64,000 nt of DNA. Source: Selenomonadaceae bacterium. Its GTDB lineage: Bacteria > Bacillota > Negativicutes > Selenomonadales > Selenomonadaceae. Each line of letters begins with the position of its first letter. Within the stretch, counting starts at the first letter, position 1. The stretch covers positions 1-64,000 of the forward strand of contig JAQYBD010000012.1 in assembly GCA_029338835.1 (NCBI GenBank). Direction: 5' to 3'. Below are positions 1,950-6,349 of this stretch, piece by piece. The notes under the pieces are model-generated. The model ran no database searches. It was not told the DNA's origin and saw only the letters and a list, made by a program, of their open reading frames with translations. The translations under genes were made by a program, and so were the position numbers.

Positions 1950-2801
1950 ATGTCAGAAACATGCAATCATGATTGCGGCTCCTGCGGGACGACCTGCGGG
2001 CAGGATACGCGCAAGAAGGACTTCCATGAAGAACCGAATGAACTGAGTTCCATCCGCCACGTCATCGCAGTCGTCAGTGGCAAGGGCGGTGTCGGCAAAT
2101 CGCTCGTGACGGGCCTCATGGCAGTGGCCATGAGCCGCAAGGGCATGCACACGGGCATCCTCGATGCGGATATCACGGGGCCATCCATCCCGAAGATGTT
2201 CGGCGTGAAGGGCGAGGTGCGTGGCAGCCAGGCAGGAGCCTATCCGGTGACGACAGCCGGCGGCATCGACATCGTCAGCATGAACCTGCTGCTGGAGAAT
2301 TCGACGGATCCTGTCGTCTGGCGCGGTCCAATCATCAGCGGCGTCGTCAAGCAGTTCTGGCATGATTTCATCTGGGAAGATGTCGATTACATGTTTGTCG
2401 ATATGCCGCCGGGAACCGGCGATGTGCCGCTCACCGTCATGCAGTCCATCAAGCTCGATGGCATCATCATCGTCACGAGCCCGCAGGAACTCGTCTCCAT
2501 GATCGTCGAGAAGGCCGTCAAGATGGCCGAGGGCATGAAGGTTCCCATCCTGGGCCTCGTTGAGAACATGAGCTATTTCGAATGCCCGGACTGCGGCAAA
2601 CGCCATGAGATTTTCGGACACAGCCATATTGAAGAGATTGCGCAGGCATATCACCTGGATGTCTTGGCCCGGATCCCCATTGAGCCGCAGCTCGCGGCAG
2701 AATGCGATGCCGGCCAGATCGAGACGATTGCCGATACGCATATGCAGGGTGCCGTTCAGAAACTCCTGGCGGCCGACAATCCGGAGAATGTGGAGGCGTG
2801 A
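1950..2801 (+). CDS. Mrp/ApbC/NBP35-family iron-sulfur cluster carrier ATPase
   Basis: Cytosolic P-loop ATPase thought to carry and transfer Fe-S clusters to apoproteins. At 283 residues it is the usual family length. The deviant Walker A motif GKGGVGKS is at residues 44-51. An N-terminal Cys cluster (C5, C9, C12, C16) resembles the ferredoxin-like motif of NBP35 proteins. A C-terminal CPDC pair is the family's cluster-binding site at the dimer interface. 'MPPGTGD' is the Walker B-like segment. An AGGAGGT ribosome-binding site sits 7 bases before the ATG. It stands alone between the rpoC terminator and a convergent AraC gene whose 3' end overlaps it by 46 bases. Whether it acts mainly in assembly or repair of Fe-S enzymes cannot be told from sequence. 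Confidence 0.93.
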   Translation: MSETCNHDCGSCGTTCGQDTRKKDFHEEPNELSSIRHVIAVVSGKGGVGKSLVTGLMAVAMSRKGMHTGILDADITGPSIPKMFGVKGEVRGSQAGAYPVTTAGGIDIVSMNLLLENSTDPVVWRGPIISGVVKQFWHDFIWEDVDYMFVDMPPGTGDVPLTVMQSIKLDGIIIVTSPQELVSMIVEKAVKMAEGMKVPILGLVENMSYFECPDCGKRHEIFGHSHIEEIAQAYHLDVLARIPIEPQLAAECDAGQIETIADTHMQGAVQKLLAADNPENVEA

Positions 2802-3652
2802 GTCTTGCGCCATTCCTTCGGGCTGCAGTGGAAATGCGCGTGAAAGGCTCGGGAAAAGGTTGAATAGTCATGGAAGCCGGTTTCCGTGCTGATGCGCGTG
2901 ACGGGCATATCGGTGCGCAGCAGGTCGCGTGCCAGGATCAGCCGTTTGTTCTGGATGTATTGATGCAGGCTGTAGCCGGTGGCTTCCTTGAATTTGCGCA
3001 TGAGATGGTAGCGGCTCAGGAAGACCTCTGCAGCCAGGCGTTCAATCGAGAGATCTTCTTTCAGATGACTGCTGATATAGCGGAGTACCTGCTGGATCTT
3101 GGGGTCGTACGCGATGCTTTCCTGTGCCTGCAGTTCATGGTCTTCCAGGCTGCGGTGAAGAAGGATCAAGAATTCCATAAAGACGATTTCTGTATACAGC
3201 CCATTGGCAAAGCCTTGCCCGTGGGCTGTTTTTTCAACTTTATCCATGTGGAAGAGCAGGTCATGGCTCTGTCCGGGCAGCTGATGCATGACACTGCCTG
3301 TGTGTTGCGCCAGTTCGAAGCAGGCGGAGAGATCGGCGCCATGGGCCTGAGCTGACCAGCGTGCCAAGAAGTCAGGTGCCACATAGATCACGATGCGTTC
3401 GTATGGCGTATTGCTGTTTCGGAAGACCGGCCGGTGGACTTCGCCGGCTGAGACGAAAACGATATCGCGTGCCTGCAGGGCATACGTCTTGCCTTCGATG
3501 ATATAATCGACCTCGCCGCCGAGGAACATGATGATTTTGTGGAATTCATGGTAATGGAAAGGGATCGGGTGCAGGTTCCGATCCTTGAGGCGGAACACGC
3601 GGAACGCGCCGCTCAGATATCCTTTTTTTGGGTAAGTTGGCATCGGTGCCAT
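2756..3652 (-). CDS. AraC-family transcriptional regulator with N-terminal cupin domain
   Basis: Probable DNA-binding regulator of 298 residues. The N-terminal half is a cupin-type effector domain: His-rich 'PFHYHEFHK' near residue 35, then 'DIVFVSAGEVHRP'. The C-terminal 100 residues hold the two helix-turn-helix motifs of the AraC/XylS family, with the typical 'RISTETGFHDYSTFSRAF' second helix pair. A purine-rich AGGGGGG lies 8 bases before the chosen ATG. It is divergent from the small DapF-like gene and convergent with the Mrp gene, overlapping the end of the latter. No sugar genes adjoin it, so its ligand and targets are unknown; the divergent neighbour is one possible target. Confidence 0.9.
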   Translation of the reverse strand: MAPMPTYPKKGYLSGAFRVFRLKDRNLHPIPFHYHEFHKIIMFLGGEVDYIIEGKTYALQARDIVFVSAGEVHRPVFRNSNTPYERIVIYVAPDFLARWSAQAHGADLSACFELAQHTGSVMHQLPGQSHDLLFHMDKVEKTAHGQGFANGLYTEIVFMEFLILLHRSLEDHELQAQESIAYDPKIQQVLRYISSHLKEDLSIERLAAEVFLSRYHLMRKFKEATGYSLHQYIQNKRLILARDLLRTDMPVTRISTETGFHDYSTFSRAFHAHFHCSPKEWRKTHASTFSGLSAARSF

Positions 3653-3761
3653 GGCGACATCCCCCCTAGCTTCTTTATCTGATTCTATTTCCTATTGTTA
3701 TCATAGAGCATTTTTTGCAATATAGAAAGCATATTTTGTGATTTTATTGCGAAATACATCC

Positions 3762-3770
3762 TGTTATAAT
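3762..3770 (+). promoter_or_regulatory. Extended -10 promoter for the DapF-like gene
   Basis: The sequence TGTTATAAT fits an extended -10 element (TGnTATAAT) about 40 bases before the proposed start at 3810. No good -35 hexamer is visible, which is usual for extended -10 promoters. Confidence 0.5.
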
Positions 3771-3809
3771 AAAGCCATCGCAAGGAAAAAAGAAAGGTTG
3801 GTGGCCCTC

Positions 3810-4136
3810 ATGATGGTCGTTCGTGTTTATAAAGCAGATAACAAAGAATACATGGTGATGGATGGCACGCAGGGGTTCTTGCCGGAAGCAGCTGCTGTCC
3901 GCCTGCTGATGCATCGTCGTCATGGTGTGGGTGCCGACCGTCTGCTGGTCTTTACGGGCAGTGAAGAAGTCCCGTCCTTCGTGGCGTTTACGCCGGAAGG
4001 CGAGCAGCAGGAACTCACGTCGGCCGATTACGCTGTGCTGAGCCGCAGTAGGGAAGATTATGAGATCCATTTGACGGATCACTTCCTCGGCCGCCTGCGT
4101 GCAGCGGCAGCTTCGCGCGCAGTCTGTGCTGGTTGA
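3810..4136 (+). CDS. Short DapF-like protein (N-terminal lobe of diaminopimelate epimerase fold, catalytic Cys absent)
   Basis: Predicted 108-residue protein. Residues about 30-45 (MHRRHGVGADRLLV) match the 'DRHxGVGxDxLL' block of diaminopimelate epimerase, and the preceding segment (KADNKEYMVMDG) matches its 'GNDFMVVD' strand. Real DapF is about 275 residues with two lobes and one active-site Cys in each. Here only one lobe is present, and where the first catalytic Cys (QCGNG) should fall the protein reads 'QELTSADYA'. It is therefore unlikely to be an epimerase. The start is either of two adjacent ATGs (3810 or 3813), with GGTGG 5 bases upstream. It ends in an Ala/Arg-rich tail and is followed by a terminator, so it is monocistronic. 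The function is unknown; the homology is inferred by eye. Confidence 0.65.
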   Translation: MMVVRVYKADNKEYMVMDGTQGFLPEAAAVRLLMHRRHGVGADRLLVFTGSEEVPSFVAFTPEGEQQELTSADYAVLSRSREDYEIHLTDHFLGRLRAAAASRAVCAG

Positions 4137-4233: not shown

Positions 4234-4266
4234 GCCTGCGCCGGTTTTGCCGGTGCAGGCTTTTTT
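4234..4266 (+). terminator. Rho-independent terminator after the DapF-like gene
   Basis: The stem GCCTGC-CCGG / CCGG-GCAGGC closes a short loop and is followed by six T. It separates the small gene from htpG. Confidence 0.9.
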
Positions 4267-4318: not shown

Positions 4319-4345
4319 TTAGCACTCGTATGGTATGAGTGCTAA
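4319..4345 (+). promoter_or_regulatory. CIRCE operator (HrcA binding site)
   Basis: A perfect CIRCE element: TTAGCACTC, nine spacer bases, GAGTGCTAA. It lies between the promoter and the htpG start. CIRCE is bound by HrcA, which normally controls groESL and dnaK operons; its position here implies HrcA control of htpG. Confidence 0.96.
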
Positions 4346-4390: not shown

Positions 4391-6349
4391 ATGGGAAAAG
4401 AAAAATATGAGTTTAAAGCGGAGACCAAGCAGCTGCTGGATCTCATGATTCATTCCATTTACACGAACCATGAGATTTTCCTGCGCGAGCTGATCTCGAA
4501 TGCTTCCGATGCCATTGACAAGGCTCACTTTGAGAGCCTGACGGATCGCAGTCTGCTTGAGGGCAATGAGAATTTTGAGATTTTCCTGACGCCGGATGCA
4601 GAGCAGCATACGCTGACGCTTGCCGATAACGGCATCGGCATGAACCGTGAGGAACTCATCGAGAACATCGGCACGATTGCGAAATCCGGCACGAAGGCTT
4701 TTCTTGAGCAGCTCAAGAAAGCGAAAGAGGAGAACCAGGATCTTACCGATAAGGAAATGATCGGCCAGTTCGGTGTCGGTTTCTACTCGGCCTTCATGGT
4801 GGCCGACCAGGTGACTATCATTTCCCGCAAGGCCGGCGATGCGCAGGCCTGGAAGTGGGAGTCTGCAGCCGATGGGTCGTACACCATCGAGGAAGCCGAG
4901 CGTGCAGAGCGCGGTACGAGCATCACGCTGCATCTCAAGAAAGAATTCTGCGGCAAGGAAGCGGAGCAGGACTTCACGGATCCGTATGAGCTTGAACGCC
5001 TGGTGAAGAAGTACAGCGATTACGTCCGTTACCCGATCAAGATGGACTTCACGTTTGAAGAAACGCCGAAGGACAAGGATGGCAAGGAAATCGAAGGTGC
5101 AGAGAAGATCAAGAAGGTCGAGACACGCACGCTCAATTCCATGCAGCCGCTCTGGACAAAGAACAAGTCCGATATCAAGCAAGAAGAATACAACGAATTC
5201 TTCAAGCATCAGTTCCACGAGTGGGAAGACCCGATGGAAGTCTTCCACACGAAGGCTGAAGGCACGGTGGAGTATACGGCACTCCTGGCTATCCCGGCAC
5301 ATGCACCGTACAACCTCTATCAGACGGATTACGAGCCGGGCGTGCAGCTCTACAGCCGCCATGTCTTCATCATGGACAAGTGCAAGGATCTGCTGCCGGA
5401 TTACTTGCGCTTCATGAAAGGCCTCGTCGATTCGCCGGATCTTTCGCTCAACATCTCGCGTGAACTCCTGCAGCAGAGCCGCGAACTCAAGACGATTGGG
5501 CGTGCGCTTGAGAAAAACATCCTGAAGGCACTGGCGCGCAAGCTCAAGAATGACCGTGAAGCCTATGAGAAATTCTGGAACGAATACGGCAAGTCCCTGA
5601 AGATCGGCATCTACAACAGCATCTACAGCGGTTCGTCGGATACGGTCGATAAACTCAAGGATCTCATCCTGTTCCTGAGTTCCAAGGAAAGCAAGCTCGT
5701 TTCTCTCAAGGAATATGTGGAGCGCATGCCGGAGAGCCAGAAGAAGATCTACTATGCGACGGCCAAGGACAAGGAGACGATCGAGCATCTGCCACAGATG
5801 GAGACGCTGCGCGACAAGGGGATCGAAGTCCTGTATCTCTTGGATCCGGTCGATGAGTTCTGCCTGGAAACCATCCACGAATACGAAGGCAAACCGTTCC
5901 ATTCGATCAGCCGCGGCGACCTCGACCTCGACGATGCCGAGAGCCAGGAAGTCAAGAAGGAGACGGAGGAGATCCAGAAGGATAACGGCGATCTCATGAA
6001 GGACATCAAGGACGTCCTGGGCGATAAAGTCGCGGATGTCAAGGTCTCGGCACGTTTGAAATCGAGTGCCGTCTGCCTTGTTGCCGATGAAGCCGGCCCG
6101 TCGCTGGCTATGGAGCAGACTTTTGCTGATATGAAGAATCCGCTCTTCAAGGCAAAGCGCATCCTCGAGATCAATCCGCATCATGAACTATTCCAGCGCT
6201 TGCAGCAGCTTCATGCAGCCGGCAAGGACAGCCAGGACTTCAAGGATTACTGCGACCTGCTCTACACGCAGGCTCTGCTCATCGAAGGCATCCTGCCGGA
6301 GAATCCGGTCGATTTCGCGAATAAAGTCGCTAAGCTCATGGCAAAATAA
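4391..6349 (+). CDS. htpG: Molecular chaperone HtpG (Hsp90)
   Basis: Cytosolic ATP-dependent Hsp90 chaperone of 652 residues, slightly longer than the typical 610-640. The N-terminal GHKL ATPase domain shows 'ELISNASDAIDK', 'DNGIGM' and 'GQFGVGFYSAF'. The middle domain has the conserved 'LNISRELLQQ' segment, and a C-terminal dimerisation domain follows. GAGAGG lies upstream of the ATG. It is a single-gene unit bounded by a CIRCE-controlled promoter and a downstream terminator. Heat-shock control by HrcA is inferred from the operator. Confidence 0.97.
   Translation: MGKEKYEFKAETKQLLDLMIHSIYTNHEIFLRELISNASDAIDKAHFESLTDRSLLEGNENFEIFLTPDAEQHTLTLADNGIGMNREELIENIGTIAKSGTKAFLEQLKKAKEENQDLTDKEMIGQFGVGFYSAFMVADQVTIISRKAGDAQAWKWESAADGSYTIEEAERAERGTSITLHLKKEFCGKEAEQDFTDPYELERLVKKYSDYVRYPIKMDFTFEETPKDKDGKEIEGAEKIKKVETRTLNSMQPLWTKNKSDIKQEEYNEFFKHQFHEWEDPMEVFHTKAEGTVEYTALLAIPAHAPYNLYQTDYEPGVQLYSRHVFIMDKCKDLLPDYLRFMKGLVDSPDLSLNISRELLQQSRELKTIGRALEKNILKALARKLKNDREAYEKFWNEYGKSLKIGIYNSIYSGSSDTVDKLKDLILFLSSKESKLVSLKEYVERMPESQKKIYYATAKDKETIEHLPQMETLRDKGIEVLYLLDPVDEFCLETIHEYEGKPFHSISRGDLDLDDAESQEVKKETEEIQKDNGDLMKDIKDVLGDKVADVKVSARLKSSAVCLVADEAGPSLAMEQTFADMKNPLFKAKRILEINPHHELFQRLQQLHAAGKDSQDFKDYCDLLYTQALLIEGILPENPVDFANKVAKLMAK

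Follow-up and report, generated by a model that had tools for sequence, protein, structure and literature searches.

A DapF-derived single lobe without the catalytic cysteine and its AraC-type partner gene in the Selenomonadaceae

The stretch of DNA analysed here (64,000 nucleotides, hereafter the window) carries a short gene whose product is homologous to one lobe of diaminopimelate epimerase (DapF), has lost the catalytic cysteine, is under purifying selection, and is accompanied in the Selenomonadaceae by a gene for an AraC-family regulator (Table 1). Our overall reading of this gene, hereafter half-DapF, is that it encodes a non-catalytic, DapF-derived lobe whose gene would be activated by the AraC protein and which would tune the supply of murein precursors. 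There are no expression, binding or phenotype data, and we judge this reading as a whole as likely to fail as to hold.

Table 1. Features of the half-DapF locus in the window
Feature	Position	Strand	Details
AraC-family regulator gene	2756..3652	-	298 aa, N-terminal cupin/AraC_binding domain; divergent from half-DapF
Operator core GCANTTTTTGCAATATNNNNNGCA	3708..3731	+	opens the 21-bp direct repeat
Second half-box	3729..3751	+	21 bp downstream of the first, adjoining the -35 position; consensus of 83 upstream regions
Extended -10 TGtTATAAT	3762..3770	+	hexamer 57 bp past the operator start
Ribosome-binding site AGAAAGG	3791..3797	+	read from the sequence; similar in relatives
Half-DapF gene	3810..4136	+	108 aa, one DapF N-terminal-type lobe, catalytic Cys absent; start ATG 3810 (or 3813), stop TGA 4136
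Intrinsic terminator, hairpin and T run	4234..4266	+	-28.5 kcal/mol, z -6.3

Half-DapF keeps the HGVGADRLLV block of DapF, and QELTSADY occupies the place of the DapF segment EAEMCGNG. Searches with the single sequence gave too weak a signal to settle its identity and were set aside: Pfam returned no match, no DapF was among the PDB matches, and the NCBIfam DapF model TIGR00652 gave E = 0.071 (12.5 bits; curated cut-off, 114.65). A profile of 16 half orthologues, searched against the PDB, matched DapF 5ha4 (E = 3.7e-7), and hhalign of the 16-orthologue profile against five DapFs gave a probability of 97.2% (E = 3.4e-11); the half profile also recovered the full-length DapF of the same genome (E = 1.1e-7). 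The half of one relative, G079, scored 47.3 against TIGR00652, under the cut-off, and 36.1 against the Pfam cut-off of 34.7, over it. The AlphaFold2 model of half-DapF (pLDDT 88.2) superposed on one DapF lobe (VIA Z 12.1, rmsd 2.1, 90 aligned), and a structure search with this predicted model returned only DapF or O-ureidoserine racemase in its top 18 rows. Rows for DapF scored Z 10.1-12.1 and those for YddE, PhzF and proline racemase Z 6.6-7.8, and an origin from a PhzF or proline racemase lobe was set aside as less favoured, though not excluded, on these weaker scores. Homology to a DapF lobe is shown by sequence, and the fold is predicted by the model. DapF (PF01678, TIGR00652) shares with the half the N-lobe fold, the GxGAD loop and the DG motif; however, DapF has two lobes and a catalytic Cys. 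Half-DapF, with a single lobe, no catalytic Cys pair and scores under the curated cut-offs, falls short of a full DapF.

All 44 chosen genomes, including the 16 that bear a half, encode a full DapF that passes the curated cut-off, and the catalytic pair was Cys/Cys in each of the six half-bearing genomes in which it was read (G000, G008, G009, G017, G073 and G078). At E <= 10, the DapF domain model picked out the two lobes of a full dapF on another contig of the half's own genome and nothing adjoining the half. That the half might be a piece of a split dapF was excluded, the second lobe being absent beside it in its own genome.

The promoter of half-DapF is conserved across genera. The terminator stretch was chosen by eye, and a simple consensus scan missed both the promoter and the terminator. 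We infer, from sequence alone, that the gene is a transcription unit of its own, with its own promoter and terminator. A link to an htpG operon was considered and dropped: htpG is the next gene in the half's own genus and is absent beside the half in most other loci. Positions 4319-4345 of the window, ahead of htpG (at 4391), hold a perfect match to CIRCE, an element linked to HrcA (TTAGCACTC-N9-GAGTGCTAA).

Halves occur in 90 of 189 Selenomonadaceae genomes, 89 of them found by profile and one, the diverged member of G073, by eye beside its AraC gene. The 89 profile-found halves are all 82-146 aa long, the one in G197 being truncated to 82 aa. Class-wide (380 genomes), no other short member was seen outside the Selenomonadaceae, with weak-E matches not fully covered; among 398 genomes sampled from the phylum at E <= 1e-11, the ten matches were nine from the half's own family and one from G418. 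Two frames of similar length were rejected as independent halves: the 112-aa frame of G418 is a Ser/Ser DapF truncated by a contig end, and the 108-aa frame of G299 is a broken Ser/Ser dapF (locus L290). For ten close pairs of halves, dN/dS was 0.04, 0.06, 0.07, 0.07, 0.09, 0.10, 0.11, 0.14, 0.16 and 0.30, the last from a pair with few silent changes (dS 0.083). Purifying selection on half-DapF is shown by these sequences. In the usual numbering of DapF, the catalytic pair is Cys73/Cys217, and Asn11, Asn64 and Asn75 are ligand residues. In all 90 halves the column of the DapF catalytic Cys and the three columns to either side of it are free of Cys, and no residue is conserved at the catalytic column itself (Thr in 28, a gap in 30, the others mixed). 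Asn11, Asn64 and Asn75 are retained in 3, 13 and 4 of the 90, respectively, counts that are approximate owing to many alignment gaps in those columns. The Gly following GAD is replaced by Arg in 64 of the 90 and by Lys in seven, and the halves conserve the GVGAD loop, this new Arg and then a new (L)TDxF-like motif. That the catalytic Cys and most substrate residues have been lost is likewise shown by sequence.

These results bear on a preliminary description of the gene made from the letters of the window. Its account of the protein, with one lobe, HGVGADRLLV kept and the Cys segment replaced by QELTSADY, held in the sequence, the profile and the predicted structure. Among the checks it had proposed, the profile search and the superposition on DapF both favoured it, the match being to one DapF lobe, and the survey of Negativicutes found the Cys absent near the catalytic column in 90 of 90 relatives, all of them Selenomonadaceae. 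A frameshift joining the gene to a second lobe would have refuted it; no second lobe was found beside the gene in its own genome, and a separate full dapF lies elsewhere. The description of a short, separately transcribed gene with its own promoter and terminator held on sequence evidence, as did the claim that the gene is not the decayed neighbour of a full dapF, given the full dapF on another contig and the purifying selection. The suggestion that the protein is probably inactive is supported by the loss of the catalytic Cys and remains an inference from the sequence.

The AraC gene, which the preliminary description had not included, nor the operator or the relatives of the regulator beside full-length dapF, ddl and alr, encodes a protein with clear Pfam matches to HTH_18 (89.2 bits, cut-off 33.6, E 2.2e-25), AraC_binding (37 bits, cut-off 21.1, E 3.3e-9) and Cupin_2 (35.1, cut-off 27.2). 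The nearest NCBIfam model, RhaS, gave 93 bits against a cut-off of 288. With presence of the AraC gene set at E <= 1e-60, the 189 Selenomonadaceae genomes comprised 90 with both genes, none with the half only, two with the AraC gene only and 97 with neither (Fisher p about 1e-52, genomes being treated as independent without phylogenetic correction). In one of the two exceptions the AraC gene lies at a contig end (G152), and the other is a fragmented assembly, 79% complete (G003). The search by eye for diverged halves was confined to the neighbourhood of AraC genes, a limit that tilts the count towards co-occurrence by one genome (G073), and the count of zero for half-only genomes relies on the sensitivity of the profile. 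The two genes are divergent neighbours in 76 of 89 cases; a contig end interrupts four of the other 13, and in the remaining nine the genes are genuinely separated. Since both genes are retained in these nine genomes, a functional connection is favoured over mere linkage.

An operator scoring at least 10, by a matrix trained on 16 sites from genus representatives, was found upstream of 83 of the 89 halves. With the best -10 hexamer sought only 46-71 bp past the operator start, the distance from operator start to hexamer was 56 bp in 35 cases and 57 bp in 48, that is, in all 83 promoters, and the extended TGn was present in 82 of them. At AraC-type promoters, an activator in contact with RNA polymerase would require such spacing. 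The 21-bp direct repeat itself shows up best in the operators that precede dapF and ddl. Six halves fell under a score of 10 within the 160 bp scanned upstream (G009, G014, G059, G078, G079 and G147). The operator core is degenerate or missing in G009, G014 and G147; G059 has just 66 bp of upstream sequence; and in G078 and G079 the operator is present farther upstream, beyond another short frame. At these last two loci (L219 and L220) this frame is unidentified, of about 90 aa, and on the strand of the half. Of the nine genomes in which the two genes are separated, eight have the operator in front of the half, and none has it in the 300 bp preceding the AraC gene. It is shown by sequence that the operator-promoter unit is rigid and stays with the half gene when the AraC gene is elsewhere. 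The half's own genome and two congeners have one operator site each at <= 2 mismatches, with no control match; several relatives (e.g., G004, G005, G007 and G015) have extra sites at 2 mismatches, whose context was not studied. In its own genome, and for sites at <= 2 mismatches, the half gene is inferred to be the only evident target of the AraC protein. Although binding and expression data are lacking, we consider it very probable that the 21-bp direct repeat is where the AraC protein binds, and that from there, next to the -35 position, it activates transcription. AraC/XylS activators with a cupin share with this protein the HTH_18 and AraC_binding domains and a direct-repeat operator adjoining the -35 position. 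In contrast to the sugar context of the named AraC/XylS regulators, its context is one of murein precursors, and its scores are far under their cut-offs.

Relatives of the AraC protein were sought in 73 chosen genomes, 28 of which (four of these Selenomonadaceae) have one at E <= 1e-30, giving 35 matches, of which the 30 with loci were examined. At 25 of the 30 the relative lies by a half, a full DapF, Ddl or Alr: by a half at three (with the extra short frame between in G078 and G079), adjoining a full Cys/Cys DapF at six, adjoining a Ser/Ser DapF at eight, with a GNAT gene intervening before a Ser/Ser DapF at two in two families (L226 and L235; Pfam confirms GNAT in L235), adjoining a D-Ala-D-Ala ligase at five, and adjoining an alanine racemase at one. 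The arrangement is divergent from ddl or alr at L214, L224, L228, L230, L234 and L227. The remaining five neighbours were ScpB-like (G009), nothing clear (G292), SDR-like and, twice, GH31; the ScpB-like and SDR-like ones were named by eye. One further AraC-linked Cys/Cys DapF, in G025, came from the operator search. Among the neighbours, three Ddl out of five, one Cys/Cys DapF, one GNAT and one GH31 were checked with family models, as was the Alr, which passed the Pfam cut-offs and narrowly missed that of NCBIfam alr; the remaining two Ddl were identified by likeness to the checked three, and the other DapFs from DapF searches or Cys-pair reading. In a tree, the AraC proteins linked to dapF, ddl, alr or a half stand apart from the SDR, GH31 and G292 group (92/93, under the starred level).

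The half-derived matrix found a site at p <= 0.015 in 14 of the 22 dapF, ddl and alr loci outside the family and missed in eight, each p value being computed against 200 random sequences and left uncorrected. By neighbour, sites were found at 6/6 Cys/Cys DapF, 3/8 Ser/Ser DapF, 0/2 Ser/Ser DapF with GNAT, 4/5 ddl and 1/1 alr loci. With this matrix there was no operator beside the SDR-linked AraC gene (p 0.15) or the ScpB neighbour (p 0.265); both GH31-linked AraC paralogues (L247 and L248) have one (score 17.9, p below 0.005), and these sites show that the operator motif is not confined to murein genes. The Ser/Ser dapF of G009 itself has an operator upstream, with one to two mismatches.

Two catalytic types were seen among the full DapFs examined (50 rows, three of them duplicates): each carries Cys/Cys or Ser/Ser as its catalytic pair. 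Full-length Ser/Ser paralogues occur in several Negativicutes families (L240, L231, L225, L241, L237 and others), and a Ser-type DapF fragment is present in G418, from another family of the phylum. Fifteen of the genomes examined encode a Ser/Ser DapF, and in 13 of them a Cys/Cys DapF occurs elsewhere; the other two, G275 and G277, have a second strong DapF whose catalytic positions were not read. An AraC-linked Cys/Cys DapF is the sole DapF over the cut-off in G025 (84% complete), G028, G027, G338, G344, G346 and G332. Ser/Ser DapFs share with the half a frequent AraC-relative neighbour, and supply the top-scoring model for the G078 and G079 halves; unlike the half, they are full length with the other checked DapF site residues intact, and their function is unknown. 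Against the halves of G078 and G079, which represent one genus, the Ser/Ser N-lobe model scored 107 and 104 bits and three Cys/Cys models 39-51. Across all 90 halves the best model was Ser/Ser for 51 and Cys/Cys for 39, and the Ser/Ser model beat the paired Cys/Cys model in 65 (median 2.7 bits). In a DapF tree the Cys/Cys clade (100/100) excludes the halves, which are placed farther out than the Ser/Ser rows, on very long branches. The half probably descends from a Ser/Ser DapF paralogue, evidence for which is decisive only in the G078/G079 genus and weak elsewhere. The derivation from DapF given in the preliminary description held, and is sharpened to a Ser/Ser paralogue in that one genus (104-107 bits versus at most 51). 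In the AraC tree, half-linked regulators join those beside the Cys/Cys DapF of family f4 (100/97), not those beside Ser/Ser DapFs, so the histories of regulator and target need not match. It appears likely, on an inference from sequence alone, that the regulator-pseudoenzyme pair grew from an AraC-controlled murein-precursor gene.

How the pair might work can only be proposed. Because AraC relatives adjoin dapF, ddl and alr, the cupin domain of the AraC protein may sense a murein-precursor or D-amino-acid signal; on the 21-bp direct repeat the protein would then drive transcription of the half gene. The induced half would act through protein binding, with no chemistry of its own, which is favoured because the catalytic and ligand residues have largely disappeared, whereas the fold core and certain new positions (the Arg and the (L)TDxF-like motif) are kept. 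Sensing of DAP by the half itself is doubtful, since the DapF ligand residues are lost. Its first candidate partner would be full-length DapF, and in this way it would tune the supply of meso-DAP for peptidoglycan, lysine and cadaverine. In E. coli, DapF binds RppH and raises its activity (PMC4227774), which resembles the present proposal in that a DapF fold acts via protein binding; however, there it is the intact enzyme that acts, and here it would be a lobe without an active site. The earlier suggestion of a regulator or binding protein, perhaps pairing with the true enzyme, remains an inference without interaction data.

Among rival explanations, the one that survives best is a co-regulator, in which binding of the half to the AraC protein, or to the ligand of that protein, would feed back on the circuit and make the pair a two-part sensor. 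This remains possible, if rather unlikely: 90 of the 92 AraC-bearing genomes have a half, no half was found without an AraC gene, and the single operator in the half's own genome (<= 2 mismatches) suggests that the regulator serves the half gene alone there. However, AraC relatives elsewhere lie beside full enzymes (dapF, ddl and alr), so this type of regulator does not seem to need a half, and to our knowledge no AraC co-regulator has a DapF-lobe fold. Alternatively, a homodimer of the half could mimic the two DapF lobes and bind or convert a new small molecule without Cys. DapF consists of two similar lobes, both of which match one Pfam model, and the conserved GVGAD loop, new Arg and (L)TDxF-like motif would suit such a role, but with no residue conserved at the catalytic column and the ligand Asn residues mostly lost in the 90 halves we regard a mini-enzyme or ligand binder as unlikely. 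Less likely still is that this DapF descendant moonlights, with no link to murein, as an adaptor for some other protein. The RppH case (PMC4227774) is the precedent, but the regulator is conserved in the company of murein-precursor genes. Finally, a decaying dapF pseudogene, to which the short length, the lost active site and the 82-aa half of G197 might point, is all but excluded by dN/dS of 0.04-0.16 in nine of ten pairs, presence in 90 genomes and the rigid promoter, and true decay looks different, as in the broken Ser/Ser dapF of G299.

Within our preferred reading, a non-catalytic lobe whose gene would be activated by the AraC protein, a bolder version is conceivable: the half would be a dedicated regulatory subunit that replaces a lobe or subunit on full-length DapF and, under an AraC sensor of murein precursors, sets the flow of meso-DAP between peptidoglycan and lysine or cadaverine, standing at the end of a path from active DapF through Ser/Ser DapF to the Cys-less half. 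In the open-access literature that we searched (subscription papers being mostly outside it), there was no description of half-DapF, of Ser/Ser DapF or of AraC control of dapF in Negativicutes, nor of AraC-type control of ddl or alr there. In Negativicutes, genes for D-amino acids and murein precursors (dapF, ddl and alr) may form an undescribed regulon under AraC-type control. The supply of DAP is of special interest in these bacteria because polyamine-modified peptidoglycan holds their outer membrane (PMC10628300). Since the regulator, the operator and the apparent intermediates (intact DapF, Ser/Ser DapF and the half) persist in living relatives, the turn from enzyme to regulator is directly testable. 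If the bolder version is true, one promoter type and one regulator would have been kept while an enzyme turned into a regulator, in diderm Firmicutes in which lysine and cadaverine would help to tether the outer membrane.
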